Part shown: positions 7,060 to 60,703 of the stretch, piece by piece | Numbering within the stretch: position 1 is the stretch's first letter | How the letters are laid out: each line of letters opens with the position of its first letter | Assembly: GCA_025041175.1 (NCBI GenBank) | Contig: JAKCFJ010000003.1 | Span: forward strand, 1 to 64,000 | Length of the DNA: 64,000 nt | Source of the DNA: Halobacteriales archaeon YIM A00010 | Lineage (GTDB): Archaea; Halobacteriota; Halobacteria; Halobacteriales; Haloarculaceae | Direction: 5' to 3' | The notes under the pieces: model-generated | Told to the model about the DNA's origin: nothing | The model's database searches: none | The model's input: only the letters and a program-made list of their open reading frames with translations | Made by a program: the position numbers and the translations under genes

Positions 7060-7132
7060 CCTCGTTCGAGACGGACTCCCGGTACAAAACGGTTTGCGAT
7101 CGTCGGAGCGGACCGCCCCTGGGCGGCCCCGT

Positions 7133-9346: not shown

Positions 9347-9878
9347 CGTCCCTGACGATGACGATGTGGACCCGTTCCGGTCCATGGACACCTTGCACAA
9401 GCGCACCCATGTCGCCGGTCGAACTCGGCCCGGTCGCGAGGATCAGCGACCGACGTCCCGCCTCGAACTCCGATTGCAGCCAGCCGAAGGCATCCGAGAG
9501 ATCCGATCGGAGGTCGCTCTCCCTGACGACGACCACGTGGAACTCCGGGTAGAGCGCGACGAACTCGTCGCCCGCTGACCGCGATTCGACGGCGACGGTC
9601 CCTAGCGAGGCGATGCCCATCCGGGAGCCGGTCACACCCATCACCGCCTCGCGCAATTGGGATGGGGACGGTTCGAGTGCCACCGGCAACTCCTCCAACG
9701 AGAGATCCTCGAAGGGCAGTTCGGCACCGACTGCCGGGGTCTCGATGACATCCGCGAGTGCCGTTTCGAACTCGTTGGGCGAGACGACAGTCGATGCCGT
9801 GTCTAATCGTGTCAGCGATTGCTGAAATTCCTGTACCGAACCCGCACTCATATCATCTGGCACGGAGTCCCGAGTCAT
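9339..9878 (-). CDS. lutC: LutC-like LUD domain protein
   Basis: 179 residues forming a single LUD domain (GSRMGIASLGTVAVES, then LILATGPSSTGDMGALVQGVHGP). It is the usual third component of the LutABC-type oxidation complex. Its end overlaps the start of the LutB-LutA fusion by 8 bases, so the two form an operon. The GPSSTADI-like motif of the family appears here as GPSSTGDM. The first ATG at 9878 gives a typical family length; MSAGSVQEF nine codons in is an alternative start. Confidence 0.82.
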   Translation of the reverse strand: MTRDSVPDDMSAGSVQEFQQSLTRLDTASTVVSPNEFETALADVIETPAVGAELPFEDLSLEELPVALEPSPSQLREAVMGVTGSRMGIASLGTVAVESRSAGDEFVALYPEFHVVVVRESDLRSDLSDAFGWLQSEFEAGRRSLILATGPSSTGDMGALVQGVHGPERVHIVIVRDDD

Positions 9879-9924
9879 AAATGTTGTAGTATTCCTCCGG
9901 CGGCCGTCGGTCGTTCGTGGCCGG

Positions 9925-10453
9925 CTATTCGTGTGCCGTGACCGTGACGACCGGAAGATTCGCGTTCACAGGATCGATTGGGTCTCGCTTCCGAACAGCG
10001 CCTTCCCCACCGGGGACCGTGCGCCCCCGCCGACGACGAGATACCGGGCGTCCACCTCCTCCGCGTACTCGACGACCTTCTTGCCGGGAGTTCCGACCCG
10101 CCCGACGACCTGGTAGTCGGCGGAAACAACCGTCTCGAGACCGTCCGCCGCCTGGGCGGCGACGTTGGCCTCCACGGACCCCGTGTCGGTCTCCCGGGCG
10201 CTGGACTGCTTCTCGACGATCCGCGTGTATTCGGTCTCCTCATACAGTCGGACAGAGCCACGGACGGAATGAGACGGAATATCCAGCTGCTGTCTGGCGG
10301 TCACCAGCAGCTGATATTCGATCATCTCTGTCCGACAGTATCAATGACGTGCACGAGGTGAAGGTCGTCGTCGAACGCTCGTGCTAGTTCGTCTGCCTGC
10401 GCGGCGGTGTCTCCCGACTGATCGGAGTCGCTGATCGCTGCAACAATGACCAT
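9925..10453 (-). pseudogene. Universal stress protein (UspA) gene split by a MITE
   Basis: The start at 10453 encodes MVIVAAISDSDQSGD and reads to LHLVHVI, where a 98-bp element (10243-10340) intervenes and brings a stop. After the element the protein continues ETEYTRIVEKQ to YLVVGGGARSPVGKALFGSETQSIL. Removing the element and one TCA copy joins the parts in frame as HVIEETEYTR, a normal UspA sequence. A second lesion near 9968, one base missing, puts the last segment (VNANLPVVTVTAHE) out of frame. UspA proteins are nucleotide-binding stress proteins. This copy should be inactive unless a C-terminal piece is made from an internal start. Confidence 0.9.
10243..10340 (-). mobile_element. Family-1 MITE inserted in the UspA gene
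   Basis: 98 bp. On the minus strand the ends are TACTGTCGGACAGAG and, as reverse complement, TACAGTCGGACAGAG. It is flanked by TCA at 10240-10242 and 10341-10343. The middle folds into a long hairpin (GAATATC, AGCTGCTG and complements). It has no coding capacity and is the uninterrupted relative of the element at 3839-4042. Confidence 0.9.
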
Positions 10454-10531
10454 GTGGTGAGGGGTGTCCGTTCCAGGATAAGTGTTCTGCTGAACGAACC
10501 GTGATACAGATCTCCGGACCGGGTGCCGGCC

Positions 10532-43097: not shown

Positions 43098-44108
43098 TTA
43101 CAAATCAAATAGCTCCTGCGCTGTGGACGTCATAATCTGATCCCGATCCGCCGCGGACGGCACCACAGCCTCAATATCGGCGATGGCCGTATCGATGTCT
43201 TCCTCATCGAATGGATAGTCCGTTCCGAACACGAAGTGATCGGTGCCGACTGTATCGATAGCGGCCTGTAATGCAGGCCGATGGAACGAGATAGTGTCGT
43301 AATAAAACTCTTTGAGGTAGTCGAGGATCGGCCGATCCGGACGTGCGTCGGGGTCAGTTATCTCTCGACGACCTCTGTCAAGGCGACCCGCCAAGTGAAG
43401 TAGCGTGCCACCCATATGTGAGAGCACGACATCGAAGTCGTGGTCGTCGAAAAAGCCGTCGTAGATCAACCGGGCGATCTGAAGCGTCGTTTCGACCGGG
43501 AATACGACGAGAGGGTTGAGAAACGACTCATTGCTTTCGAGGGTCTCGCTGAGCACATTGCCGTGGGGATGGATGAACGCGGTCAGATCTTGGTCGTCGA
43601 TCGCGGCGAAGACGGGTTCAAGGTTAGGTGCCGAGAGCTTGCCGTCGGGAAGCGAGGTCGGAAGGGCGATCCCACACAGGTCAAGATCATTGGCGATCCG
43701 GTTGACCTCGGCTCTAGCAGCCTCAGGATCACGGAGTGGCAACATACCGAGGCCGGCGATGTGGTCCGGATGGTGGGACTGTGCGTCGGCGAAGCCATCG
43801 TTTATCCGTCGGACCAGCCGGGTAGACTGGTCGGTCATAAAGACGTCTGCGAGAGGGTTCGGAGTCGAAACCGAGACGAGCGTCCGGTCGACATCGTGGT
43901 CGGCCATCCACGCCGCCCGTTCGTCGATTTCGGTGAATCCTTCCTGCAACGGGATCCGGTTTCCGGCTGCGACGCTTGCTGTCCCGGACCGCTCGTGGAC
44001 CATGTACAACTGATCGCCGTCCGATTCGAGCCCGACGGGCGTGTCCAACTCTAAAAGGAGATCCACATACGGTTCGGGCAGGAAGTGGTTGTGAACATCG
44101 ATTCGCAT
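43098..44108 (-). CDS. Amidohydrolase family 2 protein (ACMSD-like)
   Basis: 336 residues with a metal-dependent barrel. The N-terminal HxH is DVHNHF (residues 3-8), a further His is in FIHPHGN, another in SHMGGT, and the Asp is in GTDYPF. This is the COG2159 layout that includes decarboxylases and lactone or amide hydrolases. It is the last gene of a same-strand cluster with a NitT/TauT-type ABC transporter, so it may process the imported compound. The start MRIDVHNHF places the metal motif at the N-terminus as is usual. Confidence 0.85.
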   Translation of the reverse strand: MRIDVHNHFLPEPYVDLLLELDTPVGLESDGDQLYMVHERSGTASVAAGNRIPLQEGFTEIDERAAWMADHDVDRTLVSVSTPNPLADVFMTDQSTRLVRRINDGFADAQSHHPDHIAGLGMLPLRDPEAARAEVNRIANDLDLCGIALPTSLPDGKLSAPNLEPVFAAIDDQDLTAFIHPHGNVLSETLESNESFLNPLVVFPVETTLQIARLIYDGFFDDHDFDVVLSHMGGTLLHLAGRLDRGRREITDPDARPDRPILDYLKEFYYDTISFHRPALQAAIDTVGTDHFVFGTDYPFDEEDIDTAIADIEAVVPSAADRDQIMTSTAQELFDL

Positions 44109-44225
44109 GACATCCATTTCAGGAGCTACCAGTGTAAAGCTTCTCATCAAAGAATCTACATCTATGCTGCTGTGCGAGAAAAGCGTGTTCGATACGTTCG
44201 AGACATGCCAGTGAATTGGAGCCAG

Positions 44226-45095
44226 TCAGACTGACCCTGGTGGAGTCAGGACCTTCAGCGTCCATACGACGATCTGGTAGAACAGATAAGCGCCTATCAT
44301 GATAATAAGGATCACCCCGAACATATAGCCGAGTGCGTTGGTCTTCCACGCTAAGACGATCTCGTAGCCGATCCCCGACGAGGAAGCGATGAACTCCGCG
44401 ACGATGACCCCCACGATGGACAGCTGTACCGTAGCTTTGATGCTACTCGTGATGTTCGGGAGAGCACGCCAGAACCGGAAGTGCTTCACCATCTGCCACC
44501 TGCTCGCCCCGAGCAACGTTCCGAAGTGCTCAAACCGTTCTTCGAGTGAGTTCATCCCGGTAATGGTACTGATGAAGACCGGGAAGAAGCCGACCCAGGC
44601 ACCGAAGGTCGTAACGCCATTGATCGCGATCGCGGTTTCCGCTTGGGCTGCGGTTACAGAGTCGAAAAGATACGCCGAGGGGCCAGTAAATGTGAAAATG
44701 GTTATATCACCACCTATGATGAACCAGATAATGAACATTGGCGCCAGTATCGGGTGTGGCACCGCATACGCGAAGATAACCACCGGCAACGCCATTTGTC
44801 GAATGGTGGATATTTCGGCGACTATCAACCCGAGACCAATGCCGAGGAGCACGGCGAGAACGAAGGCGACGATGACCGACGTGAATGTCTCGGTGAGCTT
44901 GATGGAGATATCGGTACTATGTTCCATCACGCCACTTATCGTATAGGAAATACTGGCGAAGATGCGATTGTTATTGATCAGACGAGCTATTACCGCCCAG
45001 GCGACGACAAACAGTGCGCCTGCGAGGACGGTTGGGATCTGTCGTCGGATCCACTGTCTTGCCTTCGCAAACGGCCGGTTTGATGCGGTCGCCAT
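44226..45095 (-). CDS. NitT/TauT-type ABC transporter permease
   Basis: 289 residues with six helices of the SsuC/TauC family; the BPD loop around GASRWQMVKHFRFWRALPNI is typical. It starts 3 bases after the partner permease stop. Two different permeases in one operon indicate a heterodimeric channel. Substrates of this class include sulfonates, nitrate, pyrimidine precursors and phthalate-like acids. Confidence 0.88.
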   Translation of the reverse strand: MATASNRPFAKARQWIRRQIPTVLAGALFVVAWAVIARLINNNRIFASISYTISGVMEHSTDISIKLTETFTSVIVAFVLAVLLGIGLGLIVAEISTIRQMALPVVIFAYAVPHPILAPMFIIWFIIGGDITIFTFTGPSAYLFDSVTAAQAETAIAINGVTTFGAWVGFFPVFISTITGMNSLEERFEHFGTLLGASRWQMVKHFRFWRALPNITSSIKATVQLSIVGVIVAEFIASSSGIGYEIVLAWKTNALGYMFGVILIIMIGAYLFYQIVVWTLKVLTPPGSV

Positions 45096-45098
45096 CCG

Positions 45099-45947
45099 TT
45101 ACTCCTCCCCCATGATCGACGATTCCTGCCAGAAGATGAGCTGGCTCTCGATTTGGTAGATCAAAAACACCACGCCGGAACTGATGAAACCAAGAACGAG
45201 GACGATAGCGATTGCTCGACCAATGGCGATTTGGCCGATCACGGAGGACGCCATCGATCCGATGCCGAAGGTACCACTGACGAACTCCCCGACGACCGTG
45301 CCGATCATTGCCAAGATGAACCCGCTTTTCATGCCATCGAAGATGAAGGGAAGCCCCTTCCTGAGCCGGACGAACTTGAACTCCTGCCAGGTCGTCGCTC
45401 CGTACATCGCAAGCATGTTCTCCGTCGCCTCATCGATGTTCTTGAATCCATCGAGAGCGGCGATCAACATCGGGAAGAAGGCCACCCAGACCGCCATAAC
45501 ATAATTTGCAAGGAATGTCGCAGAAAGTGAGATAAAACCGACCCAGTAGATTACGAGCGGCGTCAACGCGATTCGCGGAACAGTGTTGACACCGATAATA
45601 AAGGGCATGAGCGCGTTCAGTAGTCGTTCGTTTGCGACTAGCACCATCGCAGTGAATATAGAGAGTACAAGCGCGATGAGATACCCCACGACAGCCGCGG
45701 CAAGCGTGTGCGGCAACGCGTCTGTGAGGGTTGGCCAGGTTCGTTGGAGTGCGTCCATCACATCGATAGGAGACGGAAAGTACTGAGGGTCGAGTCCGAG
45801 AAGAGTCGCGACCGCCTGCCAGAACACTAGCAAAAGGATAACGCCGAGCCCGGACAAAGCCCAACGCGTTAGCCGACTGTTCTCTATACTTATCCGTCCA
45901 CCTCCCGGAACCCTACTCCCCAGAGTTCGTGAATCTCTAGCAGTCAT
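45099..45947 (-). CDS. NitT/TauT-type ABC transporter permease
   Basis: 282 residues. The loop GATTWQEFKFVRLRKGLPFI matches the family. The stop is 3 bases before the second permease and the start overlaps the ATPase stop by one base, so these genes are translationally coupled. Confidence 0.88.
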   Translation of the reverse strand: MTARDSRTLGSRVPGGGRISIENSRLTRWALSGLGVILLLVFWQAVATLLGLDPQYFPSPIDVMDALQRTWPTLTDALPHTLAAAVVGYLIALVLSIFTAMVLVANERLLNALMPFIIGVNTVPRIALTPLVIYWVGFISLSATFLANYVMAVWVAFFPMLIAALDGFKNIDEATENMLAMYGATTWQEFKFVRLRKGLPFIFDGMKSGFILAMIGTVVGEFVSGTFGIGSMASSVIGQIAIGRAIAIVLVLGFISSGVVFLIYQIESQLIFWQESSIMGEE

Positions 45948-46789
45948 TATAACCTCTTGAAATGCTGGCGGAGCTCTGTTGCGAGTTCAACGAACCGTTC
46001 AGTTCCTCTCGTGTCCTCTGACCGTGGACGCTCGAGATCTATCTCAATCTCATCGACAATTTGCCCCGGACGAGGAGAGAGGACGACCACCCGATCCGAA
46101 AGAAACACCGCTTCATCGAGATCGTGGGTGATAAACAGGATCGTCTTTTCGGTCTCGTTCCAGATCCGCAATAGCTCGAGGTTGAGTTCGCCCTTTGTCA
46201 TCGCGTCTAGTGATCCGAACGGTTCGTCCATCAGCAACACGGACGGATTGTAGATGAGTGCTTGTGTGAGCGTCACTCGTTGCTGCATCCCGCCGGACAA
46301 CTCGTTGGGATACGAACTTTCAAATCCCTCGAGTCCCACAAGCGAAATGAGATCGTCTGCCCGCTCGCGGTAATGGTCCATGTCGCCTTCGATCTCCCCA
46401 TTTTCCTTCAATATCTGCACGGGGAGCAAAAGGTTCTTTCGAACCGTCCGCCACTCGAGCGCGACGGGGTGTTGGAACACGAGGCCAACCTCGTTTCGCT
46501 GGTGCTCGTCGCTTTGGACGGCTATTCCGTTTATCTCAACGGTGCCGTTCGTCGATTCCAGGATACCCGCAGCCATGTGCAACAGCGTCGACTTCCCGCA
46601 GCCTGAGGGACCGACCACGGACACGAACTCACCGCGCTCAATGTCGAGATTGACATCCTCGAGTGCCGCTACCGACTCTTCGGCAGCTGAGTCACGACCG
46701 TATATTTTGTCAACGCTGTTAAATGATATCAAGCTCTCTCTGGATGCTGCATTTGTTCCCTGTGATGATCCTGTAGTTTGATTACTCAT
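45947..46789 (-). CDS. NitT/TauT-type ABC transporter ATP-binding protein
   Basis: 280 residues. Walker A is GPSGCGKST, the signature LSGGMQQRVTLTQALIYNP, Walker B VLLMDEPFGSLDAMT, and the H-loop is FITHDLDEAVFLSDR. The signature LSGGMQQR and the short length without a MalK-type C-domain match SsuB/TauB proteins. It lies 269 bases downstream of the binding protein gene. Confidence 0.92.
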   Translation of the reverse strand: MSNQTTGSSQGTNAASRESLISFNSVDKIYGRDSAAEESVAALEDVNLDIERGEFVSVVGPSGCGKSTLLHMAAGILESTNGTVEINGIAVQSDEHQRNEVGLVFQHPVALEWRTVRKNLLLPVQILKENGEIEGDMDHYRERADDLISLVGLEGFESSYPNELSGGMQQRVTLTQALIYNPSVLLMDEPFGSLDAMTKGELNLELLRIWNETEKTILFITHDLDEAVFLSDRVVVLSPRPGQIVDEIEIDLERPRSEDTRGTERFVELATELRQHFKRL

Positions 46790-47058: not shown

Positions 47059-48285
47059 TTAGTTATCTGAGCCTTGTGCAAATAAATCCCACATTTGTCC
47101 AGCGTTTTCTTTAACTGTGTTCCATTCACTGTCACTAAATGTAGCTTTCTCTGACTTTTCCCATGGTTGTTTGTTAATGACCTGGTCCGGAGACGGTAGT
47201 GCATCAGGATTGTCGAGCAGTGCCGGACCGGCGTTTTCGAAGGCAAACGATATGCCATCCTGAGTGAAGTACCCAAGCCCCTTGTCCTTCATCTCTGGGT
47301 CGACTGCTTGCGCGCAAAGGGTCCTATACTGGCCGACGAGTTCTTCTTCGGACCAGGTCTTGAGATTAGCATTCACCTGATCTTGCATATATGTTAGATA
47401 TTCATCTTGATTCAACAGAGCCCATTTCATGGCCTTGAAGTAACCCGTCAATACCTGTGACACGAATTCTACGTTGTTCTCCTTGTTTTCGAACCAGCCA
47501 GTGTTGACCCAGATCGGGAATCCGTAGAACGGGCCGAAGGCAGTCAGTGGCGTAACACTGAGCTCAGCGTCGACCTCTGCCTCGTATTCGGGAAGCAGGT
47601 CGAGCGATCCCCAAATTGCTTGGACCTCGTTGTTGGCGAGTTTTACGGGACCGACTTGCTCAGTACCTGAGTTGGCATCCACCTTGCCCTGGTCCACACC
47701 GTTAATCTGGGGGTAGATCGGCCATGTGGCCGACGCAAACCCGGACGCGAGGTAGACGGACTTTCCGGCGAGGTCTGTCTCGCTTTCCATCTTGTCCTTT
47801 CGCCAGATGAGCGAAAGGAGCGGTCGTCCCTTAGACAAAGCCATTATCTTCACGTTCAAGTCCTTGGTTTCCTGAGTGTTGGGGATAAAGTTGATTGATG
47901 TCATCAAAGAACTGACCCCTATTGCCTTGTTGCCGATTCCGATCTGTTGGATCTCCGTATCGGAGCCGTCGCCCTTCATTGCGTTGACTCCAGAGACGCC
48001 AGCGTCCTCCCAGTAGCCTTCTCCTTCGGCGACGTGGGCAGTGCCCCACGAGGGTTCTTTTTTCCAAGGCGTCGTGAAGACCACTTCGGCGGAATTTTGG
48101 CCATCACCACTTCCACCGGAGCCGTTCCCACTACCGCCGAAGCCAGTACACCCGGCTACCATCATTGCTCCGAGCGAACTGAGCGACCCATGCAGGAATT
48201 TCCGCCGATCAATCTCCCCCGGAAGGATCCCATCCAGTTCGTGTACGATTGCTTCATCGACTTCGTTACGCTCACCCTGCGACAT
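47059..48285 (-). CDS. NMT1/ThiY-like ABC transporter substrate-binding protein
   Basis: 408 residues. The N-terminus has an unusually long cytoplasmic stretch before the Tat motif DRRKFLHGSLSSLG, which ends at the lipobox MVAGC. The mature protein has the SsuA/NMT1 layout (WGTAHVAEGEGYWEDAGV; GVSSLMTSINF; AGKSVYLASGFASATW). The start MSQGERNEVD was selected because upstream codons are unrelated. It is the first gene of the transporter operon. No ligand can be assigned. Confidence 0.88.
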   Translation of the reverse strand: MSQGERNEVDEAIVHELDGILPGEIDRRKFLHGSLSSLGAMMVAGCTGFGGSGNGSGGSGDGQNSAEVVFTTPWKKEPSWGTAHVAEGEGYWEDAGVSGVNAMKGDGSDTEIQQIGIGNKAIGVSSLMTSINFIPNTQETKDLNVKIMALSKGRPLLSLIWRKDKMESETDLAGKSVYLASGFASATWPIYPQINGVDQGKVDANSGTEQVGPVKLANNEVQAIWGSLDLLPEYEAEVDAELSVTPLTAFGPFYGFPIWVNTGWFENKENNVEFVSQVLTGYFKAMKWALLNQDEYLTYMQDQVNANLKTWSEEELVGQYRTLCAQAVDPEMKDKGLGYFTQDGISFAFENAGPALLDNPDALPSPDQVINKQPWEKSEKATFSDSEWNTVKENAGQMWDLFAQGSDN

Positions 48286-48547
48286 TGTGTGACAATAATC
48301 AACATCATACATAAAGGTTGCCACCAGGAACCGTACCAACTCTGCTGTTGCTGGGTTCCAAAACAGCCTCTATTTCTAACAGAATTCTAGGTGCTCGACC
48401 TGGCAAATCATTTAGTTCAGAGAACTGCTAATTTAGCAGAACGTCGACAGGGGAAGCGGAATGATTTGCGCCGTCTTCAGATGTTAATTGGATAAAAGAA
48501 CCGACTACGAAGCCGAAACCAACCGTTTGAGCGATTTGGCATTGTAG

Positions 48548-49086: not shown

Positions 49087-52000
49087 ATGACAGACAAAGA
49101 CAATCAAGACACTCCAATCAGTGTCAATAGGAGATCGTTCCTCCAGGCCACAGGAGGGATCGGTGTCGCTGGGTTCGCTGGCGTGAACGGTATCGTCAGT
49201 GCAGAAGAACACAGCGACTACAACGGCGTAATCGAACTCGAGGCCGTACACACACGTAATAACCCTGGGCGGGGGCCGCCGGATCACGCAGGCGGTTCGG
49301 GCGGCGGCCCGCCAGACCATGCGGGTCCTGGTAACGGTAAGGGTGCGTTTGCCTGGGTCGGGATCGCTCCGGAAGAGATCGCGGATGAGGAAAATCCGAC
49401 GCTCTCGCTGGTCGCGGGCGAAGAGTATACTCTCGAGTGGACGAGTACGACGAACGCTCCACACTCGTTTATCGTCGTGGACGAGGATGGCGATGAGATC
49501 CTCGCTTCCGACGAAGCGACAGGAAAAGGCGAGACGGTGACCGTCGAGTTCACCGCAACCGAAGAGATGGCTGCGTACCACTGCGGGTATCACTCCACCC
49601 AGATGCAGGGCTCCATCGTGATAGACGATGGCTCATACGCTGACAACCCGGCGTTGTCGCCCGAAGAGGCCCTGGATACGTTCGAGCTGCCAGACGGCTG
49701 GAAGATCGAACAGGTCGCCTCCGAGCCGTTGATCAACAGCCCGGTCGACATCAAGTGGGACGCCGAAGGCAGGATGTGGGTTGTTGAGATGCCTGATTAC
49801 ATGGACCTTGTTCCTGGTGATGGCCGCGGTGGCGACGAACCCGGTAATTACGGTGACTGGGGTGATGCAGATATGAGTCTCGAGGAAATGACCGGCTGGG
49901 GTGACGAGCTCAGCGACGAAGAACCAAACGGTGCGGTTAAAGTGCTCGAGGACACTGATGGCGACGGTATCATGGATAAGGCGACGACGTTCGCCGACAC
50001 GCTCACTGTTTCGCGGGCATTCTCATTGGTCGATGCTGATGATGCCCTCATGGTCGCCCACGCCGGCTCCGCCGTTGACGAACCGGATCTCTTCTTAGCC
50101 ACGGACGAGAATGGCGATCTGGAGGCCGATAGCAAAGAACCCCTGATTGATAGCTGGGTCAATGAGGATAATCCCGAACACACCTCCAACGCGCTGGATT
50201 ACAACCTGAACAACTGGATCTACAACTCCAACTCCACTGACCGGTTCCAGTACCGCAATGGCGATATCGTAGAAGCGAACACTCATAGCCGCGGCCAATG
50301 GCAAATCTGCCAAGACAACTACGGCCGTCTCTACTCCACTCACAACTCTAATTGGCTGTTCGCAGATTTCGTTCCCGGCCATGGCGACTACCTCCTCCGA
50401 GATCCAGATAACGAGACGAGCAACGGTGTTGCAGTTGATGTCGATCCTGACGGCACAGTCTATCCGGTTCGGGAGGTCTGGGGAACGAACCGCAGTTACC
50501 CCGGTGGCTGGGAGTCTCATCGCGACGACGGTCGGATCGAGACGATAACAGCGATCTCCGGTCCGGGGGTTTATCGAGGCGATGTCTTCTCAGAGGAGCT
50601 CGTCAACGACGTTTTTGTTTGCGAACCAAAGGCTCAAGCTATCGCTCACTTCGCTACTGAGGATGAAGAAGATGACCTTGGCTTGGACGTAGAGCATGTC
50701 GTGTATGACAACGACGAGTGGGGAGACCAGGAATTCCTCGCGTCCTCAGACGAGGTGTTCAAGCCGGTCAACGTCAAGATGGGACCGGACGGCGCGCTCT
50801 ACGTCGTAGACATGTACAATGGTATTTTCCAACACAATCGCTTCCTCACTGACTATCTTGCGGAGTACTATTTGGAGAACGATCTTCACAAGGCACCCCC
50901 TGCCGGCCGAATTTATCGGATCTATCCCGAAGATGCCGAGTTGGACGATCCGCCGGCGCTCGACGGGTTAACACCCGAGAAACTTGCCGAACAGCTCGAA
51001 CACGGCAATGGCTGGGTCAGACTAACTGCCCAGCGGTTGATCGTTCAGGGCAACGAGACCGATGCCGTGTCCACGCTGCAGAGAATCGCCCAGGAAAGCG
51101 ACGCATCTCTTGGCCGGATGCATGCGTTGTGGGCACTACATGGACTCGGCGAGATCGATGCCAGTTCTGTCTTCGCCGTCATGGATGACACTGAGAACTC
51201 GCACGTTCTCGCCAACGCCATGCAAACTGGTGAAGCGCTGCTCGAGACTGATGACGCCAAAGCGTACGTCGACAGACTCGTGGATTTCGCCGATGCCGAT
51301 CATCTCCGGCTAGTCGTCCAGGCGGCTTACTCACTCGGCGAAGTCACCGACGACGACTCCAGTCTTCAGGAGACGGCCAGATCCACACTCGAAAGACTAC
51401 TCGTTGATTACGAAGGCAACACGTACGTCGAGGATGCCGTCCACTCCTCGCCTGAAATGGATATTGAACCTCAAACAGGTCCGTACACTGTTGAGGACAC
51501 TGAGGGGGTGCACACGGATGTCTTCCACATAGACGACGGTCAGGTCGGGCGATACATGTACGAGTACGATCCTGACAATCAAAGTGATACGTTCAAACCC
51601 TACTTGCACGTCTGGGATTCGGAGAGAGACGAACCGCTAACGGCCGACCCCTCGCAGGAAGTCATTTACGATCACCACCGTGGCATTTTCATCGGATGGG
51701 ATGACATCGAGGTTGACGGCCAGGGCATCGACAACTGGCACACCGACCCGACCATCCACCAAGAATACGATCCGTCGCTCGAGGAGTTCGACGAGGAACA
51801 GGCGCTCACCGCCATCAACCATTGGTTGACTGAACCGGACGGCGATGTATTCGTCACAGAAACACGGAGGATGGAGTTCCAGGAGCCACAGACAGAAGAT
51901 GGTGTCTCAATCGTCGACTGTACGTTCACCCTCGAGTTCGAGACGGACGTTGAGCTGTATGGTGATCCAGAACATGGAGGCATCCAGTACCGCGCTCATG

Positions 52001-52677
52001 GCGATGTCGACGACAATCGCTCTGCGGAGTACTACTTCTCGGATCACTGGGACTGGGGTGAAAATCCCGGTGAGGGCTCCGTCAATGAGGCGTTTGGCTA
52101 CGACTGGGTCGCGATGGAGTGTGAGATGCACGACGATGACTACTTCGTCGCTATTATGAACCACCCAGACAACCCCATGGCAAACGAGTCGACGGTATCA
52201 GCCTACCGTGATTACGGCCGATTCGGCTTCTACTGGGAGGGTTCGTTCGAAGAAGGCGACGAGATCACAGTCGATTACCGGTTCGTCGTTGAGCGAGGAA
52301 GTGCCCCCGAAGGAGAAGCGGACGAAATCGACGAATGGTTCGCCGACTACGCCGGGGAAGATGTTCAATTCGAATTCAATGGACAAACAAATGCCTGGGT
52401 CGGTATCGCCCCCGGGGAAATCGAAGGCGAGGAGAATCCGACGCTGACCTTACAAGAGGGAGAGACGTACGAGATTGGCTGGACGGAAGGTGATGGCGCC
52501 GGGCACAATATTGCCATCCGAAACGATGACGGGGAGGTTGTTGACGATCTCCGGACCGAAATAACGAGCGATCCCGGTGATGATCAGTGGCTCGAGTTCG
52601 AGGCGACCGCCGAGATGGCGGAGTACGTCTGTGAGCCCCATGTGAGCGCCATGGTCGGAGAAATAGACGTCCAGTAG
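49087..52677 (+). CDS. Secreted cupredoxin - PVC-type propeller - helical repeat - DUF6807-like - cupredoxin protein
   Basis: 1196 residues. The Tat signal is NRRSFLQATGGIGVAGFAG (14-32). A linker with repeated GPPDHAG leads to a first cupredoxin domain (about 85-182) with type-1 copper ligands H126, C166, H169 and M173. A beta-propeller like the PVC-type 'membrane-bound dehydrogenase' domain (TIGR02604) follows (about 195-610; WKIEQVASEPLINSPVDIKW, VKMGPDGALYVVDMYNGIFQ). Then come HEAT-like helices (620-790), a DUF6807/PmoA-like domain (about 795-1060; YDHHRGIFIGW) and a second cupredoxin (1095-1196; H1140, C1182, H1185, M1189). It is probably an extracellular copper-linked oxidoreductase acting on a carbohydrate. 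Function is inferred. Confidence 0.8.
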   Translation: MTDKDNQDTPISVNRRSFLQATGGIGVAGFAGVNGIVSAEEHSDYNGVIELEAVHTRNNPGRGPPDHAGGSGGGPPDHAGPGNGKGAFAWVGIAPEEIADEENPTLSLVAGEEYTLEWTSTTNAPHSFIVVDEDGDEILASDEATGKGETVTVEFTATEEMAAYHCGYHSTQMQGSIVIDDGSYADNPALSPEEALDTFELPDGWKIEQVASEPLINSPVDIKWDAEGRMWVVEMPDYMDLVPGDGRGGDEPGNYGDWGDADMSLEEMTGWGDELSDEEPNGAVKVLEDTDGDGIMDKATTFADTLTVSRAFSLVDADDALMVAHAGSAVDEPDLFLATDENGDLEADSKEPLIDSWVNEDNPEHTSNALDYNLNNWIYNSNSTDRFQYRNGDIVEANTHSRGQWQICQDNYGRLYSTHNSNWLFADFVPGHGDYLLRDPDNETSNGVAVDVDPDGTVYPVREVWGTNRSYPGGWESHRDDGRIETITAISGPGVYRGDVFSEELVNDVFVCEPKAQAIAHFATEDEEDDLGLDVEHVVYDNDEWGDQEFLASSDEVFKPVNVKMGPDGALYVVDMYNGIFQHNRFLTDYLAEYYLENDLHKAPPAGRIYRIYPEDAELDDPPALDGLTPEKLAEQLEHGNGWVRLTAQRLIVQGNETDAVSTLQRIAQESDASLGRMHALWALHGLGEIDASSVFAVMDDTENSHVLANAMQTGEALLETDDAKAYVDRLVDFADADHLRLVVQAAYSLGEVTDDDSSLQETARSTLERLLVDYEGNTYVEDAVHSSPEMDIEPQTGPYTVEDTEGVHTDVFHIDDGQVGRYMYEYDPDNQSDTFKPYLHVWDSERDEPLTADPSQEVIYDHHRGIFIGWDDIEVDGQGIDNWHTDPTIHQEYDPSLEEFDEEQALTAINHWLTEPDGDVFVTETRRMEFQEPQTEDGVSIVDCTFTLEFETDVELYGDPEHGGIQYRAHGDVDDNRSAEYYFSDHWDWGENPGEGSVNEAFGYDWVAMECEMHDDDYFVAIMNHPDNPMANESTVSAYRDYGRFGFYWEGSFEEGDEITVDYRFVVERGSAPEGEADEIDEWFADYAGEDVQFEFNGQTNAWVGIAPGEIEGEENPTLTLQEGETYEIGWTEGDGAGHNIAIRNDDGEVVDDLRTEITSDPGDDQWLEFEATAEMAEYVCEPHVSAMVGEIDVQ

Positions 52678-53153: not shown

Positions 53154-54635
53154 TCACAAATTCTTCAGCCAGTCATCAAGAGGTGTGAACTGGCTTGCGT
53201 CAAACTCGATACCGACCCCGAATGGTGCATCGACGACCGAACTAAGGTCGACGTTCCCCTCATTAATTGCAAGGGTAGCAAACCCATCTTCGTGGCGGTG
53301 ATATAAGTCGCTGTGTGTTTCGAGAACCCTCTCTTGGATCTCCTCCGGAAATGCGTCTAATCCCACGAAGTAGTGGTGGCCGTTTCGCTCGACATGTTCG
53401 GCACCGATCGTGGTCGTCACGGCGAAGTCTTGTAACGACTCGATTGGACCGGTGGTGGTGAGATCCTCAGCACTTAGCACGTACTGTCGAGTTGTATCTG
53501 TTCGATTACGGTGTGCAATGAGACACGCATTGACTATTCCTTTGAAAATTCCTTTACAATTTTTGTGGCTCGTTCCGGCGTATCCGTACTCGAGTGCGGT
53601 GCCCGCATCGTCAATATGACCATCGGACTCATCGATAATAATCGGCGGAGCATCGTTCCACTCCACGAACACCTCCTTCGTTTCTGTGGTAAACGCGTCG
53701 TCTCGTGCGAGCGGCTGCTCAATGTAGGCGAGTCGATCGAGAAGCGGTGACAGTTCTGGATTGGTGGCGAGGGTCTCCCATTTCCGTTTGAACGTCCGTG
53801 CAGAGTCGTATCCCTCGTTCGCATCCATGGTACAGAGGTATTCATCGACCCCCTGTTCATTGAGCAGGTGTGTAATCCGAGCAAGCCGGTTTGTGTCGAA
53901 CTCTGGGTCGGCCGAGAGTTTGATTTTGAAATGATTCACTCCATCTCGACGGACGTATTCCACCAAGGACTGGGGCAATCCGTCCTCAAGCTGCTCCGAT
54001 GGACCTCGATTGGCGTCAGTCAGTGGATCATCAAGACCGACAGTATGGCGGATCGCGGTCGATCGCAATGGTTCATCAGGGAGGAGATCAGCCGGTTCAT
54101 ACGCTCTTAATTCGCTATATATCGATCCCAGGTCGAGACCCAGTGTATTGCGTCGGACTGCCGTCTCAAACGAAATGTTTTGCTTTCGACACGCGGCATC
54201 GATTAACGCCTGTTCAATCAAGCTCACCCCGTACGTCCAGAGCAAGGGTGGATGGTCGGTGCTGTCTGCCCACTCACGTTGGCTCTTATACAGCGATTTC
54301 CAGAACGAGAACACGGATGATTGGGCCTCGAGTGTGCAGGCTCTATCTGCTGCCGAGCGGAACGCCTCGACCATGTTCTGCAGGCCATCCTCGAGGTTCA
54401 TGCTCGGATCCTTGTAGAACCACCCCGGAATTAGTCCCCCCATCGCGATTCCTTCCTGAGTCGTGCCGTTGATTTCCGTTTTTATCCGGAGAAATACTTT
54501 CGGCATTTCAGTGATTTCGATGTTGCCAAAATGAAACGGTAGTCGGGTCTCTAGGTCGGTGACACTGAAGTCCGTGGACGATACTGAAACCTGCATGGTC
54601 GGACTATTCATCGCCATGATCATATTCTTTTCCAC
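53154..54635 (-). CDS. Divergent enolase-superfamily enzyme
   Basis: 493 residues, longer than the usual 370-400. The C-terminal barrel shows FKIK (K237, K239), D271 and N273 in MDANEGY, E306 in YIEQPL, D335-E336 in IIDESDG and K358 or K361 in SHKNCKG. The KxK plus a C-terminal lysine is the pattern of the muconate-lactonising/dipeptide-epimerase subgroup rather than mandelate racemase. The N-terminal capping part has extra segments, notably 75-130. The neighbours (LarA-like, Gfo/Idh) suggest sugar-acid or cyclitol chemistry. The start is uncertain: ATG codons at residues 5, 7, 9 and 14 are alternatives. Confidence 0.75.
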   Translation of the reverse strand: MEKNMIMAMNSPTMQVSVSSTDFSVTDLETRLPFHFGNIEITEMPKVFLRIKTEINGTTQEGIAMGGLIPGWFYKDPSMNLEDGLQNMVEAFRSAADRACTLEAQSSVFSFWKSLYKSQREWADSTDHPPLLWTYGVSLIEQALIDAACRKQNISFETAVRRNTLGLDLGSIYSELRAYEPADLLPDEPLRSTAIRHTVGLDDPLTDANRGPSEQLEDGLPQSLVEYVRRDGVNHFKIKLSADPEFDTNRLARITHLLNEQGVDEYLCTMDANEGYDSARTFKRKWETLATNPELSPLLDRLAYIEQPLARDDAFTTETKEVFVEWNDAPPIIIDESDGHIDDAGTALEYGYAGTSHKNCKGIFKGIVNACLIAHRNRTDTTRQYVLSAEDLTTTGPIESLQDFAVTTTIGAEHVERNGHHYFVGLDAFPEEIQERVLETHSDLYHRHEDGFATLAINEGNVDLSSVVDAPFGVGIEFDASQFTPLDDWLKNL

Positions 54636-55000: not shown

Positions 55001-55261
55001 AGTAGGTTCCGTCGCGTTTATTTACTCACCAACGTCGGGATTTTCGAGTGTACCGATCCCTTCGATCCCGGCCTCACATGTTTTGCCTCGGACAAGTAGG
55101 TCAACAGGATCACGGAAGATCCAGACATGCCCGGCGTGCCGGTCGAAACGATGTCCCCGGCTGGAGTGTCATATTCTGACTGGCATAGGTCACCAGCTCC
55201 GAAACGTCGAAAATGTCGAACAAATGGGTGTTGTCGGAGCCGATTAATCATCCGAGTTGGG

Positions 55262-55271
55262 GTATACTTAT
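55262..55271 (+). promoter_or_regulatory. TATA-like element of the LarA-like gene
   Basis: GTATACTTAT, 26 bases before the ATG at 55297; supports that leaderless start over the ATG at 55213. Confidence 0.5.
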
Positions 55272-55296
55272 CACGGAAGCTGCCAAGCAGTACGAT

Positions 55297-56658
55297 ATGG
55301 AAAATCGGTCATCACGCGAGTCGCTCGCAGTTTCGGAAGCGTCGATCCTCGAGGCATGCGGTGAAACAGCCTTTCCCGAAATGGGGCTCATCGAGCAGGT
55401 CTGGGAGACGGATCCCATTTCCGATGACGAAGTCGCCAATCACGCCATTGCGGCTTTGAAATCACTGGCCTTCGAAGATGTGCCGTCCGGTGGTGAGGTC
55501 GCAATCGGGGTCGGGAGTCGCGGGATCGCGAACCTCCCTACTATCGTTTCGGGAGTGATCCAGGGCGTCAAGGATCGTGGTCACGAGCCGTTCGTGTTCC
55601 CAGCTATGGGAAGTCATGGTGGTGCTAACGCGGAGGGTCAACGCGAGATGTTGGCCGAACTCGGCGTAACGGAGTCGGCGATCGGGTGTGAAATCCGCTC
55701 CAGCATGGCCGTTACCGAGGTCGGTCGTACCGCCGAACGGGATATCCCAGTCGTCGCCGACGCCAATGCGGTCGAAGCCGATGCGATCGTTCCGATAAAC
55801 CGAATCAAACCGCACACCGACTTCGACGGATCGGTTGAGAGCGGTCTCTCGAAAATGCTCGTCATTGGAATGGGGAAACAACGCGGGGCGAAAATCGCTC
55901 ACGATTGGGCAGTCGACTGGTCGTTGCGGAACATGGTCCCGGAGATTACAGCACAGTTGCTCGATGAACTGCCTGTGGTGGGTGGGGTAGCAATCCTGGA
56001 AGACCAGCGCGACGAGACAACGCTCATCGAAGGGATCCCCCCGAACGGATTCCTCGACCGCGAGAAGGAGCTTCTCGAAACAGCATACGAGATCATGCCG
56101 AAGATACCGTTTCGGGAGGTTGATGTCTTGGTTCTCGACCAGCAGGGAAAGGACATCAGCGGCCAGGGGATGGATACGAACGTCACTGGCCGCCGGCCGT
56201 TTGCTATCCAGGAGCCGGAGCCTGAAACGCCGAATATCAAACGGATCTATACTCGTACGCTCACCGAAGTGACGCATGGAAACGCAATGGGGGTGGGAGC
56301 AGCTGACTTCGTTCATCAAAATCTTCTTGCTGAGATAAACATGCCGACGACGCTTATCAACGCACTGACCGCGAGTACCACCAGAGGGGTTCGACTTCCA
56401 CCGGCCGTCGAAACCGATCGTGCCGGCCTCGCGGCGGCACTGTCGACTATTGGCGTCGTTGATCCAACAGCGGTCCGCGTCCTTCGCGGCACCGACACGA
56501 TGCATCTCCAGCGTCTCTATGCGTCCAGTGCGTTGGTCGAGGAAGCGCGGGGTCGGGACGATCTTCGGGTTCTTGAAGAGCCATCATCGATTCGTTTCGA
56601 ATCGGGCAGCTTTGCGGCGCCCTCCCCACACGAGACATCCGATGGTATCGATTCATAG
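55297..56658 (+). CDS. LarA-like (lactate racemase domain, DUF2088) protein
   Basis: 453 residues. Conserved blocks include GVGSRGIANLPTIVSGVI, FPAMGSHGGANAEGQREML, NRIKPHTDFDGSVESGLSKM and GKDISGQGMDTNVTG. This is the LarA-related superfamily; characterised members are nickel-pincer racemases or epimerases of 2-hydroxy acids, including sugar acids. This subgroup is not characterised to my knowledge. It lies beside a divergent enolase-type enzyme and two Gfo/Idh oxidoreductases. The TAG stop is formed by a TA target site and the first G of a 104-bp inserted element, so the original C-terminus may have been longer. Confidence 0.7.
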   Translation: MENRSSRESLAVSEASILEACGETAFPEMGLIEQVWETDPISDDEVANHAIAALKSLAFEDVPSGGEVAIGVGSRGIANLPTIVSGVIQGVKDRGHEPFVFPAMGSHGGANAEGQREMLAELGVTESAIGCEIRSSMAVTEVGRTAERDIPVVADANAVEADAIVPINRIKPHTDFDGSVESGLSKMLVIGMGKQRGAKIAHDWAVDWSLRNMVPEITAQLLDELPVVGGVAILEDQRDETTLIEGIPPNGFLDREKELLETAYEIMPKIPFREVDVLVLDQQGKDISGQGMDTNVTGRRPFAIQEPEPETPNIKRIYTRTLTEVTHGNAMGVGAADFVHQNLLAEINMPTTLINALTASTTRGVRLPPAVETDRAGLAAALSTIGVVDPTAVRVLRGTDTMHLQRLYASSALVEEARGRDDLRVLEEPSSIRFESGSFAAPSPHETSDGIDS

Positions 56659-56860: not shown

Positions 56861-58009
56861 TCAGACTCGTAGTTCGTCGACAGTGACGCGCTGCCCTTCT
56901 TTCCAGGATCGATGGCTCGCCTCAGTCAACTGAACACCTTTCACTCCCGAACGGAAGTCCCACGGGAACGGCTCGTCTGCGACGACATGGCGGATGTACT
57001 CCACCCATTGCTGTTTGAACGCGTTCTCGAACACCTGATTGTCGGGTACCGATTCCCAGTCTCCATAAAAGTCGTGTTCCGTGGGCGTGTCGGGGTTCCA
57101 TTCCGGTTTCGGCGTGTTCGCATGGTGTTGAGTTTTACACTCCCGTAACCCAGCGACGGCGCTCCCTTCGGTTCCGTCGACCTGTATTTCAAGCAGGTCG
57201 TCACGATTGACCCGTACCGTCCACGATGAGTTGAGCTGAGCGACGATGTCGTCCTCAAGTTCCATAATGGCGTAGGCCGCATCTTCGGCAGTCGCTTTGT
57301 ACTTCTCGCCGTCCTCATCTACACGCTCAGGAATATGACTCTTCCCGAGGCAACTGACCGTCCGGATCTCACCGAAGAGTTCCTCTAACACGTAGCTCCA
57401 GTGGGAAAACATGTCATCAATGATACCTCCACCGTCCTCCGAGCGATAGTTCCAAGACGGACGCTGAGCGGGTTGCAGTTCGCCGGTAAACACCCAGTAC
57501 CCGAATTCGACGCGTACAGAGAGAATATCGCCGAAATAGCCCTGGTCGATTAACCGCTTGAGTTTCATCAAACCAGGAAGCCAGAGTTTGTCCTGTACGA
57601 TTCCGTGTTTCACGTGGCTCCGTTCAGCGGTGCGTGCGACCTCTAGGGCAGTGTCCAAGTCCGTAGCTAGTGGTTTTTCACAGTAGACGTTCTTACTGGC
57701 ATTAATGGCTTTCAGGACGGCCTCGGGCCGTCGCGGCGTGATCTGCGAGTCGAAATAGAGCTCATCATCTCCTTCTAGACAGGATTCCAGATCGGGGTCA
57801 ACGGTCCACCGGTCAATATCATGCTCCTCGCTCAATGCTCGCAATTTGCGCTCGTTCCGTCCGACGAGTAGCGGGTCAGGCATTATGTACTCCCCGGTTG
57901 GTAGTTCGACGCCCCCTTCGTCACGAAGTGCTAGGATCGAACGAAGGAGATGCTGGTTCCTTCCCATTCGACCCGTCACTCCATTCATAATGATGCCAAT
58001 TTCTTGCAT
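56861..58009 (-). CDS. Gfo/Idh/MocA-family oxidoreductase
   Basis: 382 residues, cytoplasmic. The Rossmann motif at the N-terminus is GIIMNGVTGRMGRNQHL. The catalytic EKP is in VYCEKPLATD (near 110), followed by KLWLPGLMKLKRLIDQGYFG and DDMFSHWSYVLEELFG (His, about 205). This family oxidises or reduces sugars, inositols and their acids with NAD(P). It is divergent from the second Gfo/Idh gene, with MITE copy B between them. Confidence 0.88.
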   Translation of the reverse strand: MQEIGIIMNGVTGRMGRNQHLLRSILALRDEGGVELPTGEYIMPDPLLVGRNERKLRALSEEHDIDRWTVDPDLESCLEGDDELYFDSQITPRRPEAVLKAINASKNVYCEKPLATDLDTALEVARTAERSHVKHGIVQDKLWLPGLMKLKRLIDQGYFGDILSVRVEFGYWVFTGELQPAQRPSWNYRSEDGGGIIDDMFSHWSYVLEELFGEIRTVSCLGKSHIPERVDEDGEKYKATAEDAAYAIMELEDDIVAQLNSSWTVRVNRDDLLEIQVDGTEGSAVAGLRECKTQHHANTPKPEWNPDTPTEHDFYGDWESVPDNQVFENAFKQQWVEYIRHVVADEPFPWDFRSGVKGVQLTEASHRSWKEGQRVTVDELRV

Positions 58010-58393: not shown

Positions 58394-59500
58394 ATGGGTG
58401 TGAATGTAGGCTATATCGGCGTCGACCATCATCATCGCGATCCCTATTTCGCCATCGCGAGCGGACTTGGTGTGGACATTACAGCGGTTTGTGAGCCTGG
58501 ACGGCGAATAGATCTCGATAACCTTGCTGCAATGGATGACCGTCCAGACGAAATCACGACCGAGGGACAGGACGCTGCTGGCCTCGTTGCGGGAGCGATG
58601 GTTTATGAAGATCCCCATCGTCTAGTTGCCGACAGTGGAGTCGATGTCGTTTGGATCACGTATCGAAACGATACGACGCCCTCAATCGTCGAGACCGCTG
58701 TCGACCATGGTGTACACGTTATCAGTGAAAAGCCAATCGGGCGAACCGCAGCTGATCTGGAGGCGGTAGCCAGACGAGCGAACGAGACGAACGTCACCAT
58801 CTCTCCGACGACGTTCTATCGAAAAAATCCCATTGCGATAGATCTTCGGGACAGGGTTCAGGACGGCTTCTTTGGGGATGTCTGGACGGTACAGGGACGA
58901 TTTAACGCCAGTCAACTCGTCTATCGAAACACCACACACTATATTTACGATGAAGAGACGAGCCGTGGGGGGGCTCTCCAGTGGATCGGGCCACATTGGG
59001 TTGATATGATACCATGGATACTCGACGATCCGATCACGAAGGTGAACGCTCAGTTTCACGATGCGGCCGAAGTCGATGTTGAGTCCGGTGCTGTTCTCCA
59101 GTTTGAGACCGCAGGAGGTACTCTCGGAACGTACCACACCGGCTATTATCTGAACGAACGAGGCAAGGACACTCATCTCGGCGTATACGGGTCGAATGCT
59201 CAGGCTCGGACGCCTATCCACCATGACTCGCTCCAACACGAGCCTACCGTCCCACTCGAGCTCACTGCAGGCGATTCCGATTGGTCGGGAGCTCCTCGGC
59301 GGACCATCGAGTATGAGTTCACGTATGATCGATTTCCTGCGTGGGGCGACTACGTACAAGACTACTTCGAGGCATTCTTTGAAGGATATGCGACCGGTGA
59401 TGTACCCGCGACTGTCGACGATGCGGTCCAGCTGCTTCGAGTCCTCGACGCTGCCTACGAATCCGATAACCGTGGCGAGTGGGTGGATGTCGACAGATAG
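58394..59500 (+). CDS. Gfo/Idh/MocA-family oxidoreductase
   Basis: 368 residues. The N-terminal strand is GVNVGYIGVDHHHRDPYFAI, an altered Rossmann loop in which the usual GxGxxG is missing. The EKP motif is present (HVISEKPIGR, near 117) and the substrate-domain His is in GPHWVDMIPWIL (near 205). Because the dinucleotide loop reads GVDHHH, cofactor binding may differ from normal family members. It is divergent from the other Gfo/Idh gene and precedes an IclR gene on the same strand. Confidence 0.85.
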   Translation: MGVNVGYIGVDHHHRDPYFAIASGLGVDITAVCEPGRRIDLDNLAAMDDRPDEITTEGQDAAGLVAGAMVYEDPHRLVADSGVDVVWITYRNDTTPSIVETAVDHGVHVISEKPIGRTAADLEAVARRANETNVTISPTTFYRKNPIAIDLRDRVQDGFFGDVWTVQGRFNASQLVYRNTTHYIYDEETSRGGALQWIGPHWVDMIPWILDDPITKVNAQFHDAAEVDVESGAVLQFETAGGTLGTYHTGYYLNERGKDTHLGVYGSNAQARTPIHHDSLQHEPTVPLELTAGDSDWSGAPRRTIEYEFTYDRFPAWGDYVQDYFEAFFEGYATGDVPATVDDAVQLLRVLDAAYESDNRGEWVDVDR

Positions 59501-59935: not shown

Positions 59936-60703
59936 ATGGCACATAATAATCAAGCCAATACACTGAACACGACAATAACATCGATCGAGATACTCGAACT
60001 GCTCGAGGAGCTGGATGGTGCACGGGTGACCGAGATCGCGGAACGTATGGACGCTCCAAAGAGCACGATCCACGGCCACCTCATGACGCTGAAAACGAAG
60101 CAATTCGTGATCAAGCGGGGTGACATCTATTGTTTGGGACCGGGGCTACTCCGATTGGGAAATCACGTTCGTACTCGAAAAGAGGAATTCGTGTTGGCAC
60201 GTGAGTTCACGGAGAAATTGTTTGAGGAGACTGGCTTTCGATCGACATTCGTCGCTGAAATGGAAGGTAAAGCTGTCTTTATTCATACGGCGTCCGGGAA
60301 CAGAATGAGATGGGCGCACGAACGTCTCGGGAGCCGCCTCAATCTCCACAACACTTCCTTTGGAAAAGCGATCCTCGCCGAAATGCCCCGATCCAGAGTC
60401 GAACAGATTCTTGATAGATTCGGGATGCCCCAGGAGACGGAACACACGATCACTGACCGGGAAGTCTTGTTCTCCGAACTAGAAATGATATCTGAGCAGG
60501 GATACGCCGTCAATCACGAGGAGAATATCAAGGATCTCCATGCAATAGGGGTTGCCGCCACGGAACAGTCAGGTAACGTGATCGGCGGGTTCAGTATCAC
60601 GGGACCAAAAAATTCGTTTACCGATTCGGAGAAAAAACGCCAGTTGGCGGATATTGTTACCAAACTCGTCAACGAGTACGAACTCGAACTCTCCCTTGCG
60701 TGA
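59936..60703 (+). CDS. IclR-family transcriptional regulator
   Basis: 255 residues. The winged helix includes EIAERMDAPKSTIHGHLMTL (about 34-53) and the effector domain FGKAILAEM, GMPQETEHTITD and AIGVAATE. A TATA-like TTTATTAG at 59907-59914 lies about 22 bases before the ATG. It probably controls the adjacent Gfo/Idh, LarA-like and enolase-type genes. It is the third intact IclR protein of the window; a fourth is a fragment. Confidence 0.92.
   Translation: MAHNNQANTLNTTITSIEILELLEELDGARVTEIAERMDAPKSTIHGHLMTLKTKQFVIKRGDIYCLGPGLLRLGNHVRTRKEEFVLAREFTEKLFEETGFRSTFVAEMEGKAVFIHTASGNRMRWAHERLGSRLNLHNTSFGKAILAEMPRSRVEQILDRFGMPQETEHTITDREVLFSELEMISEQGYAVNHEENIKDLHAIGVAATEQSGNVIGGFSITGPKNSFTDSEKKRQLADIVTKLVNEYELELSLA

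Follow-up and report, generated by a model that had tools for sequence, protein, structure and literature searches.

The present analysis concerns a stretch of 64,000 nucleotides (hereafter the window) at the start of contig JAKCFJ010000003.1 from Halobacteriales archaeon YIM A00010, a haloarchaeon whose genome assembly comprises 5.97 Mb in 7 contigs and is 99.74% complete. It focuses on one gene of the window, encoding a multidomain protein of 1196 amino acids (aa) in which two cupredoxin domains bracket a propeller of the DUF7133/TIGR02604 type. We moderately favour the view that this protein is an exported, copper-wired enzyme oxidising sugars, whose C-terminal copper domain replaces a cytochrome c. 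An earlier note, made by a model from the sequence alone, had suggested that copper may replace haem as the electron outlet of the enzyme, and this suggestion is supported: the propeller is accompanied by c-type cytochromes in bacterial relatives, whereas it is accompanied by cupredoxins in haloarchaea, and no haem-c family was detected in the host genome.

Domain layout and partners of the propeller

Profile searches gave the domain order cupredoxin - DUF7133/TIGR02604 propeller - HEAT-like helices - DUF6807 - cupredoxin (Table 1), a layout that the earlier note had described accurately. Both ends match Pfam Copper-bind (two stretches, 1.4e-13) and carry a full His-Cys-His-Met set with the spacing of cupredoxins, from which copper binding is predicted. 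They have in common the WVGIAP..ENPTL sequence and are 43% identical over 95 columns. Their identification as cupredoxins is based on sequence profiles and on ligand spacing; AlphaFold gave a mean predicted local distance difference test score (pLDDT) of 38 for aa 800-1196, a segment that holds the C-terminal cupredoxin and was predicted from the single sequence, and the structure prediction of aa 180-800 with one homologue reached a pLDDT of 34.5. The propeller covers the whole DUF7133 profile (285.6 vs 27 bits) and exceeds the cut-off of the NCBIfam model TIGR02604 (150.3 vs 122.2 bits), in agreement with its description as a Planctomycetes-Verrucomicrobia-Chlamydiae (PVC)-type propeller. 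The NCBIfam name of TIGR02604 refers to PVC bacteria and Pfam lists DUF7133 as a family of unknown function. The helical repeats between the propeller and DUF6807, also noticed earlier, score slightly below the HEAT_2 cut-off of Pfam (26.7 vs 27.7 bits), and the DUF6807 match (1.9e-30; 106.9 vs 27 bits) covers profile positions 4-266 of 270. Six cysteines are present (at 166, 408, 512, 945, 1012 and 1182) and, as previously noted, none lies in a CxxCH motif; this haem motif of the "PVC-type heme-binding CxxCH protein" family is absent throughout the protein. The reading frame is already open at GTG 49066, an in-frame alternative start, but ATG 49087 is the likelier start because translation from it runs into the signal for twin-arginine translocation (Tat), NRRSFLQATGGIGVAGFAGV. 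No lipobox cysteine was found in this signal, and a hydropathy scan of the protein revealed no hydrophobic stretch for a C-terminal membrane anchor.

The bacterial relatives that we sampled are plasmid-borne and come from four organisms. Those of Gemmatirosa and Catenovulum (33% and 30.5% identity, about 90% of the query) have a fused C-terminal CxxCH domain; the relative from Ketogulonicigenium is devoid of CxxCH, but a gene for a c-type cytochrome lies upstream in the same orientation and stops 24 bp short of it. In Runella, the propeller gene runs past the end of the plasmid record. The link between propeller and cytochrome c, which the earlier note gave for planctomycetes and verrucomicrobia, was found here as a fusion in two of these four bacteria and as an adjacent gene in a third. 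By contrast, CxxCH was found in none of the 11 haloarchaeal DUF7133 proteins checked (that of the window and ten further ones). Our scan of 392 Halobacteriales genomes revealed twelve full-length DUF7133 proteins in nine genomes, and each of them has a cupredoxin at its C-terminus; the reading frame of one (from G239) is broken. The host genome, which encodes 15 Copper-bind domains, showed no match to PF00034 (Cytochrom_C), PF13442 (Cytochrome_CBB3) or PF01578 (cytochrome c assembly), each of which was matched in 7-9 control genomes. Since no cytochrome c or assembly family is detectable in this host, the organism is probably unable to mature a haem-c partner and copper probably takes its place, as judged from the absence of three models in one genome.

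Kinship of the propeller and its likely activity

In an unrooted tree that includes four bacterial sequences and long branches, and in which the direction of transfer is assumed, the propeller of the window groups with the bacterial sequences and apart from the remaining propellers of haloarchaea (99/98 and 100/100). This grouping with plasmid-borne bacterial sequences supports the origin outside Archaea that had been proposed; it also suggests that two propeller lineages, both copper-equipped, entered haloarchaea separately. The relationship of DUF7133 to the sugar dehydrogenases that depend on pyrroloquinoline quinone (PQQ) appears indirect, through bridging proteins: four haloarchaeal proteins match the DUF7133 and GSDH profiles alike (two of them above both cut-offs), and one of the four matches soluble glucose dehydrogenase (sGDH) in PDB. 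Furthermore, E364-H365 of the window protein aligns ungapped with D143-H144 of sGDH, and the catalytic-type histidine (H144 in sGDH, H365 here) is invariant in all five type-A propellers compared, as is a Gln-Trp beside the R402-G403 position. The counterpart of the blade motif F(K/R)PVNVKMGPDGALYVVD in GSDH is similar. The histidine is displaced by one position in the type-B propellers, which belong to haloarchaeal ThuA-DUF7133-CBM-cupredoxin proteins. These resemblances make the propeller a likely oxidase of the sGDH-type fold.

Several observations weigh against the proposed oxidase and its replacement of haem by copper. The R228-N229 pair of sGDH corresponds to R402-G403 in the window protein, and the bacterial relatives do not retain the arginine; in sGDH, as in fungal AA12 (R430-N431), the Arg-Asn pair holds the PQQ quinone (PMC6881789). 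Because this pair is not conserved, PQQ should not be assumed to be the cofactor. The comparison of DUF7133 with the haloarchaeal GSDH profile reached only 32% probability, over one blade, and the bacterial sample is small. PqqC was not found in the host genome, which is not proof since no control genome matched either, and the search for PqqE gave only a sub-threshold match. Neither the window protein nor any member of sequence set A2 matched the GSDH profile (PF07995), and PDB sequence searches with DUF7133 profiles returned nothing meaningful. A search of open-licence papers by the family names DUF7133 and TIGR02604 found no literature. The sorbosone dehydrogenase of Ketogulonicigenium was considered as a characterised relative and rejected, the structural paper concerning an NAD(P)-dependent aldehyde dehydrogenase of Gluconobacter, which belongs to another family.

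The altered Arg-Asn pair would also suit a propeller that is not an oxidase but binds carbohydrates or hydrolyses them without cofactor, like a lactonase, the copper domains then serving for scavenging, adhesion or storage, or being inert beta-sandwich spacers. The N-terminal cupredoxins have often lost ligands and can therefore serve as plain beta-sandwiches, and a Cu/Zn superoxide dismutase fused to a six-bladed lactonase propeller exists in Deinococcus (PMC12362111). However, the cytochromes c fused or adjacent in the bacterial relatives point to redox work, the C-terminal copper site is intact in all the 23 copies compared, and the catalytic histidine of sGDH is in register in all five type-A propellers compared. 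We consider such a non-oxidase rather unlikely.

The two cupredoxin ends

The oxidase reading places the electron outlet in the C-terminal cupredoxin, and 70 cupredoxin domains from the gathered loci were aligned. The His-Cys-His-Met set, complete in 23/23 C-terminal domains and in 24 of the 25 stand-alone ones, is complete in only four of the 21 N-terminal domains (C vs N, Fisher p = 9e-9, relatedness not being corrected for). The ligands are lost or altered in the 17 others: a glutamine replaces the axial methionine in eight (L049, L051, L052, L054, L057, L060), and the cysteine and/or a histidine is lost in nine. Glutamine in place of the axial methionine is the stellacyanin pattern, which would shift the potential but not abolish it; these eight N-terminal copies may be low-potential copper sites. 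In the tree, the C-terminal cupredoxin of the window lies inside a clade of stand-alone halocyanin-like proteins (99/97), a nearness that is partly due to selection since the stand-alone set was collected by similarity to the window protein; the N-terminal one falls among the other N-terminal copies and is weakly resolved. The window protein does not reach the cut-off of the halocyanin model TIGR03102 (31.3 vs 93.8 bits). Its position among halocyanin-like proteins makes the C-terminal domain the likely electron outlet. As far as these alignments indicate, the C-terminal cupredoxin is the conserved redox part; the N-terminal one, intact though it is in the window protein, is labile. A recent duplication was rejected as the source of the two cupredoxins, given their identity of 43% and their different places in the tree.

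The two equivalent copper outlets suggested by the earlier note were therefore not borne out, and the loss of copper ligands in homologues, which it named as an argument against its proposal, was observed for the N-terminal end but not for the C-terminal one. The same data bear on a relay in which one copper takes the electrons of the propeller and the other docks to the acceptor. The complete ligand sets at both ends of the window protein, the three other proteins with a full N-terminal set and the eight with a glutamine would allow such a relay. However, among the twelve full-length haloarchaeal proteins the N-terminal domain is missing in two and has lost its cysteine and/or histidine in five, and the syntenic orthologue of Haladaptatus sp. 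DYF46 has Ser-Tyr-Gln at the N-terminal ligand positions and an intact C-terminal site. A two-copper relay is thus distinctly improbable.

Proposed function and genomic setting

The activity of the propeller, its substrate, its cofactor and the direction and path of the electrons, as we infer them, would be as follows. The protein would be exported in folded form by the Tat pathway and act outside the membrane, where the DUF7133 propeller would oxidise a sugar, a sugar derivative or a glycoside in the manner of sGDH. The HEAT and DUF6807 parts would be accessory, providing a scaffold as well as sugar binding or processing. The C-terminal type-1 copper domain would accept the electrons singly and pass them to the halocyanin pool and then to terminal oxidases, in substitution for the cytochrome c that the bacterial relatives carry fused or adjacent, and the N-terminal cupredoxin would provide a second copper site that is probably dispensable. 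The oxidised product may be imported by the divergently encoded ATP-binding cassette (ABC) transporter and handled by the nearby Gfo/Idh enzymes and amidohydrolase. There are precedents for several of these steps: in fungal pyranose dehydrogenase, a PQQ propeller passes electrons internally to the haem domain with which it is fused (PMC4332668, PMC6881789); the halocyanins of haloarchaea are seen as electron donors of terminal oxidases, and in both Hbt. salinarum and Har. marismortui a halocyanin is fused to a respiratory protein, cbaD (PMC3403918). In another reading, the copper domain would bypass respiration and supply an external acceptor, either an oxygen-activating partner or a mineral, in the way that lytic polysaccharide monooxygenases (LPMOs) receive electrons from AA12 and cellobiose dehydrogenase in fungi. 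This would fit a protein predicted to be secreted and apparently unanchored, and fungal AA12 pyranose dehydrogenase is reported to drive LPMO action (PMC5960967), but the accepted role of halocyanins (PMC3403918) and the fact that no oxygen-activating partner was seen in the neighbourhood, although no search was aimed at one, make it barely credible.

Compared with known systems, the window protein shares its propeller (above cut-off) and its HEAT companion with the TIGR02604/Piru_Ver_Nterm proteins (Pfam DUF7133) but differs from them by the absence of CxxCH, the cupredoxins at its ends and its haloarchaeal host. Fungal CcPDH (AA8-AA12-CBM1) is similar in its working principle, a carrier of single electrons being tethered to a six-bladed propeller that oxidises sugars (PMC4332668, PMC6881789); it differs by its haem b instead of copper, by another propeller family and by its PQQ ligands, which are partly missing here. 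Halocyanins and the plastocyanin family (PF00127) have the same copper ligands and include the closest relatives of the C-terminal domain, which is, unlike them, part of a large enzyme-like protein. The type-B proteins share DUF7133 and an intact C-terminal cupredoxin, but their propeller is only about 25% identical to that of the window and forms a separate branch, and they carry ThuA and CBM instead of DUF6807. A second DUF7133 copy of the host genome (C3:688279) is of this type.

Apart from DUF7133 and the C-terminal cupredoxin, the haloarchaeal proteins variously contain ThuA, 3-keto-disaccharide hydrolase (DUF1080), malectin, CBM4/9, PKD or DUF6807 domains. The orthologue of Haladaptatus sp. 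DYF46 (L003/L055), the only relative returned by a scan of genome contigs (a scan of viral contigs returned none), has a 70% identical propeller-HEAT core and the same neighbourhood, with identities of 59-78% for the neighbours. It lacks DUF6807, has lost the N-terminal copper site and carries additional domains of the 3-keto-disaccharide hydrolase and malectin types, two of each. In DYF46, the amidohydrolase gene lies directly upstream of the copper-propeller gene and a ThuA-GSDH gene follows the latter. These domains, the ThuA-GSDH gene and the syntenic Gfo/Idh genes are consistent with a sugar setting. DUF6807 itself occurs in seven of the 392 Halobacteriales genomes, once in the host, and among four neighbourhoods examined a Gfo/Idh gene adjoins it in the three clear cases. 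The open frames that hold its other haloarchaeal copies measure 298-633 aa, and only the copy of the window lies in one of about 1200 aa; the domain combination of the window protein was not seen elsewhere among these genomes.

Table 1. Coordinates of the features discussed (positions in the window, unless a locus is named).
Feature	Position	Strand	Details
Multidomain protein	49087..52677	+	1196 aa, strongly acidic (pI 4.05), 132.7 kDa
Tat signal (NRRSFLQATGG...)	49123..49185	+	aa 13-33; weak Pfam TAT_signal and TIGR01409 matches
N-terminal cupredoxin	49339..49632	+	aa 85-182
N-terminal ligands (predicted)	H126 (49462-49464), C166 (49582-49584), H169 (49591-49593), M173 (49603-49605)	+	
DUF7133/TIGR02604 propeller	49657..50934	+	aa 191-616; DUF7133 E=9.5e-85
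Candidate catalytic residues	E364-H365 (50176-50181), R402 (50290-50292), K559 (50761-50763)	+	
HEAT-like helical repeats	50977..51471	+	about aa 631-795; HEAT_2 6.7e-6; helical in low-confidence model
DUF6807 domain (earlier name PmoA-like)	51523..52323	+	aa 813-1079; E=1.9e-30
C-terminal cupredoxin	52363..52674	+	aa 1093-1196
C-terminal ligands (predicted)	H1140 (52504-52506), C1182 (52630-52632), H1185 (52639-52641), M1189 (52651-52653)	+	
Amidohydrolase (Amidohydro_2)	43098..44150	-	70% identity to DYF46
ATPase and two permeases, same ABC transporter	44226..46789	-	76, 68, 71% identity to DYF46
NMT1-type substrate-binding protein, ABC transporter	47059..48339	-	divergent from copper-propeller gene; 59% identity to DYF46
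Gfo/Idh/MocA oxidoreductase	56861..58009	-	78% identity to DYF46
Second Gfo/Idh/MocA oxidoreductase	58394..59500	+	75% identity to DYF46
IclR-family regulator	59936..60703	+	65% identity to DYF46
MSVVIVGTLDTKGEEIGFA... protein	L048:10956-12167, L050:6162-7382, L054:11601-12905, L061:7265-8476, L062:7220-8431, L063:6637-7848		

Other features were observed in the window and at related loci. Directly after the copper-propeller gene, the opposite strand encodes a 493-aa protein (53154-54635, -) that had no Pfam or NCBIfam match at the thresholds used; its KxK, DANE, EQP and DES stretches look like those of the enolase superfamily. The window also encodes a nickel-pincer-cofactor-dependent isomerase of group 22 (55213-56658, +; NF052515, 491 bits, cut-off 400) and a protein of glycoside hydrolase family 2 that is exported via Tat and carries a LamG-like domain at its C-terminus (36035-38683, -), and its G+C content is 63-70% between 6000 and 16000 compared to about 50-60% over most of the remainder. 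At locus L079, a stand-alone DUF6807 gene adjoins a Gfo/Idh gene, and the vicinity, read by eye, includes an apparent glucuronate isomerase and secreted GH10-like xylanases, hinting at catabolism of uronic-acid sugars. Two adjacent large proteins of the host genome (L048:1180-5856 and 6504-10469, -), ThuA-DUF1080-GSDH-cupredoxin and ThuA-DUF7133-CBM-cupredoxin, both have, after the cupredoxin, a terminal stretch resembling Dockerin_1. A conserved MSVVIVGTLDTKGEEIGFA... protein, which presumably resembles the Tm-1/UPF0261 family, adjoins ThuA-DUF7133 genes in six genomes. In G239, a short segment with an unknown base, apparently left over from adapters or assembly, interrupts the DUF7133 frame (L063:10900-11000).

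Taken more broadly, it is possible, although this remains a tentative proposal, that haloarchaea devoid of c-type cytochrome synthesis repeatedly acquired propeller oxidases from a large, cytochrome-linked family of bacteria and each time captured a halocyanin to rewire them. The result would be secreted sugar dehydrogenases that are wired by copper and have a cofactor other than classical PQQ. One redox cofactor would then have been substituted for another following gene transfer across domains of life, apparently on two occasions. If such a class of copper-wired dehydrogenases exists, solving one member would give DUF7133 its first function. Since a built-in blue copper centre would be a visible reporter of electron arrival, the haloarchaeal versions make the redox question of the DUF7133 family directly testable.

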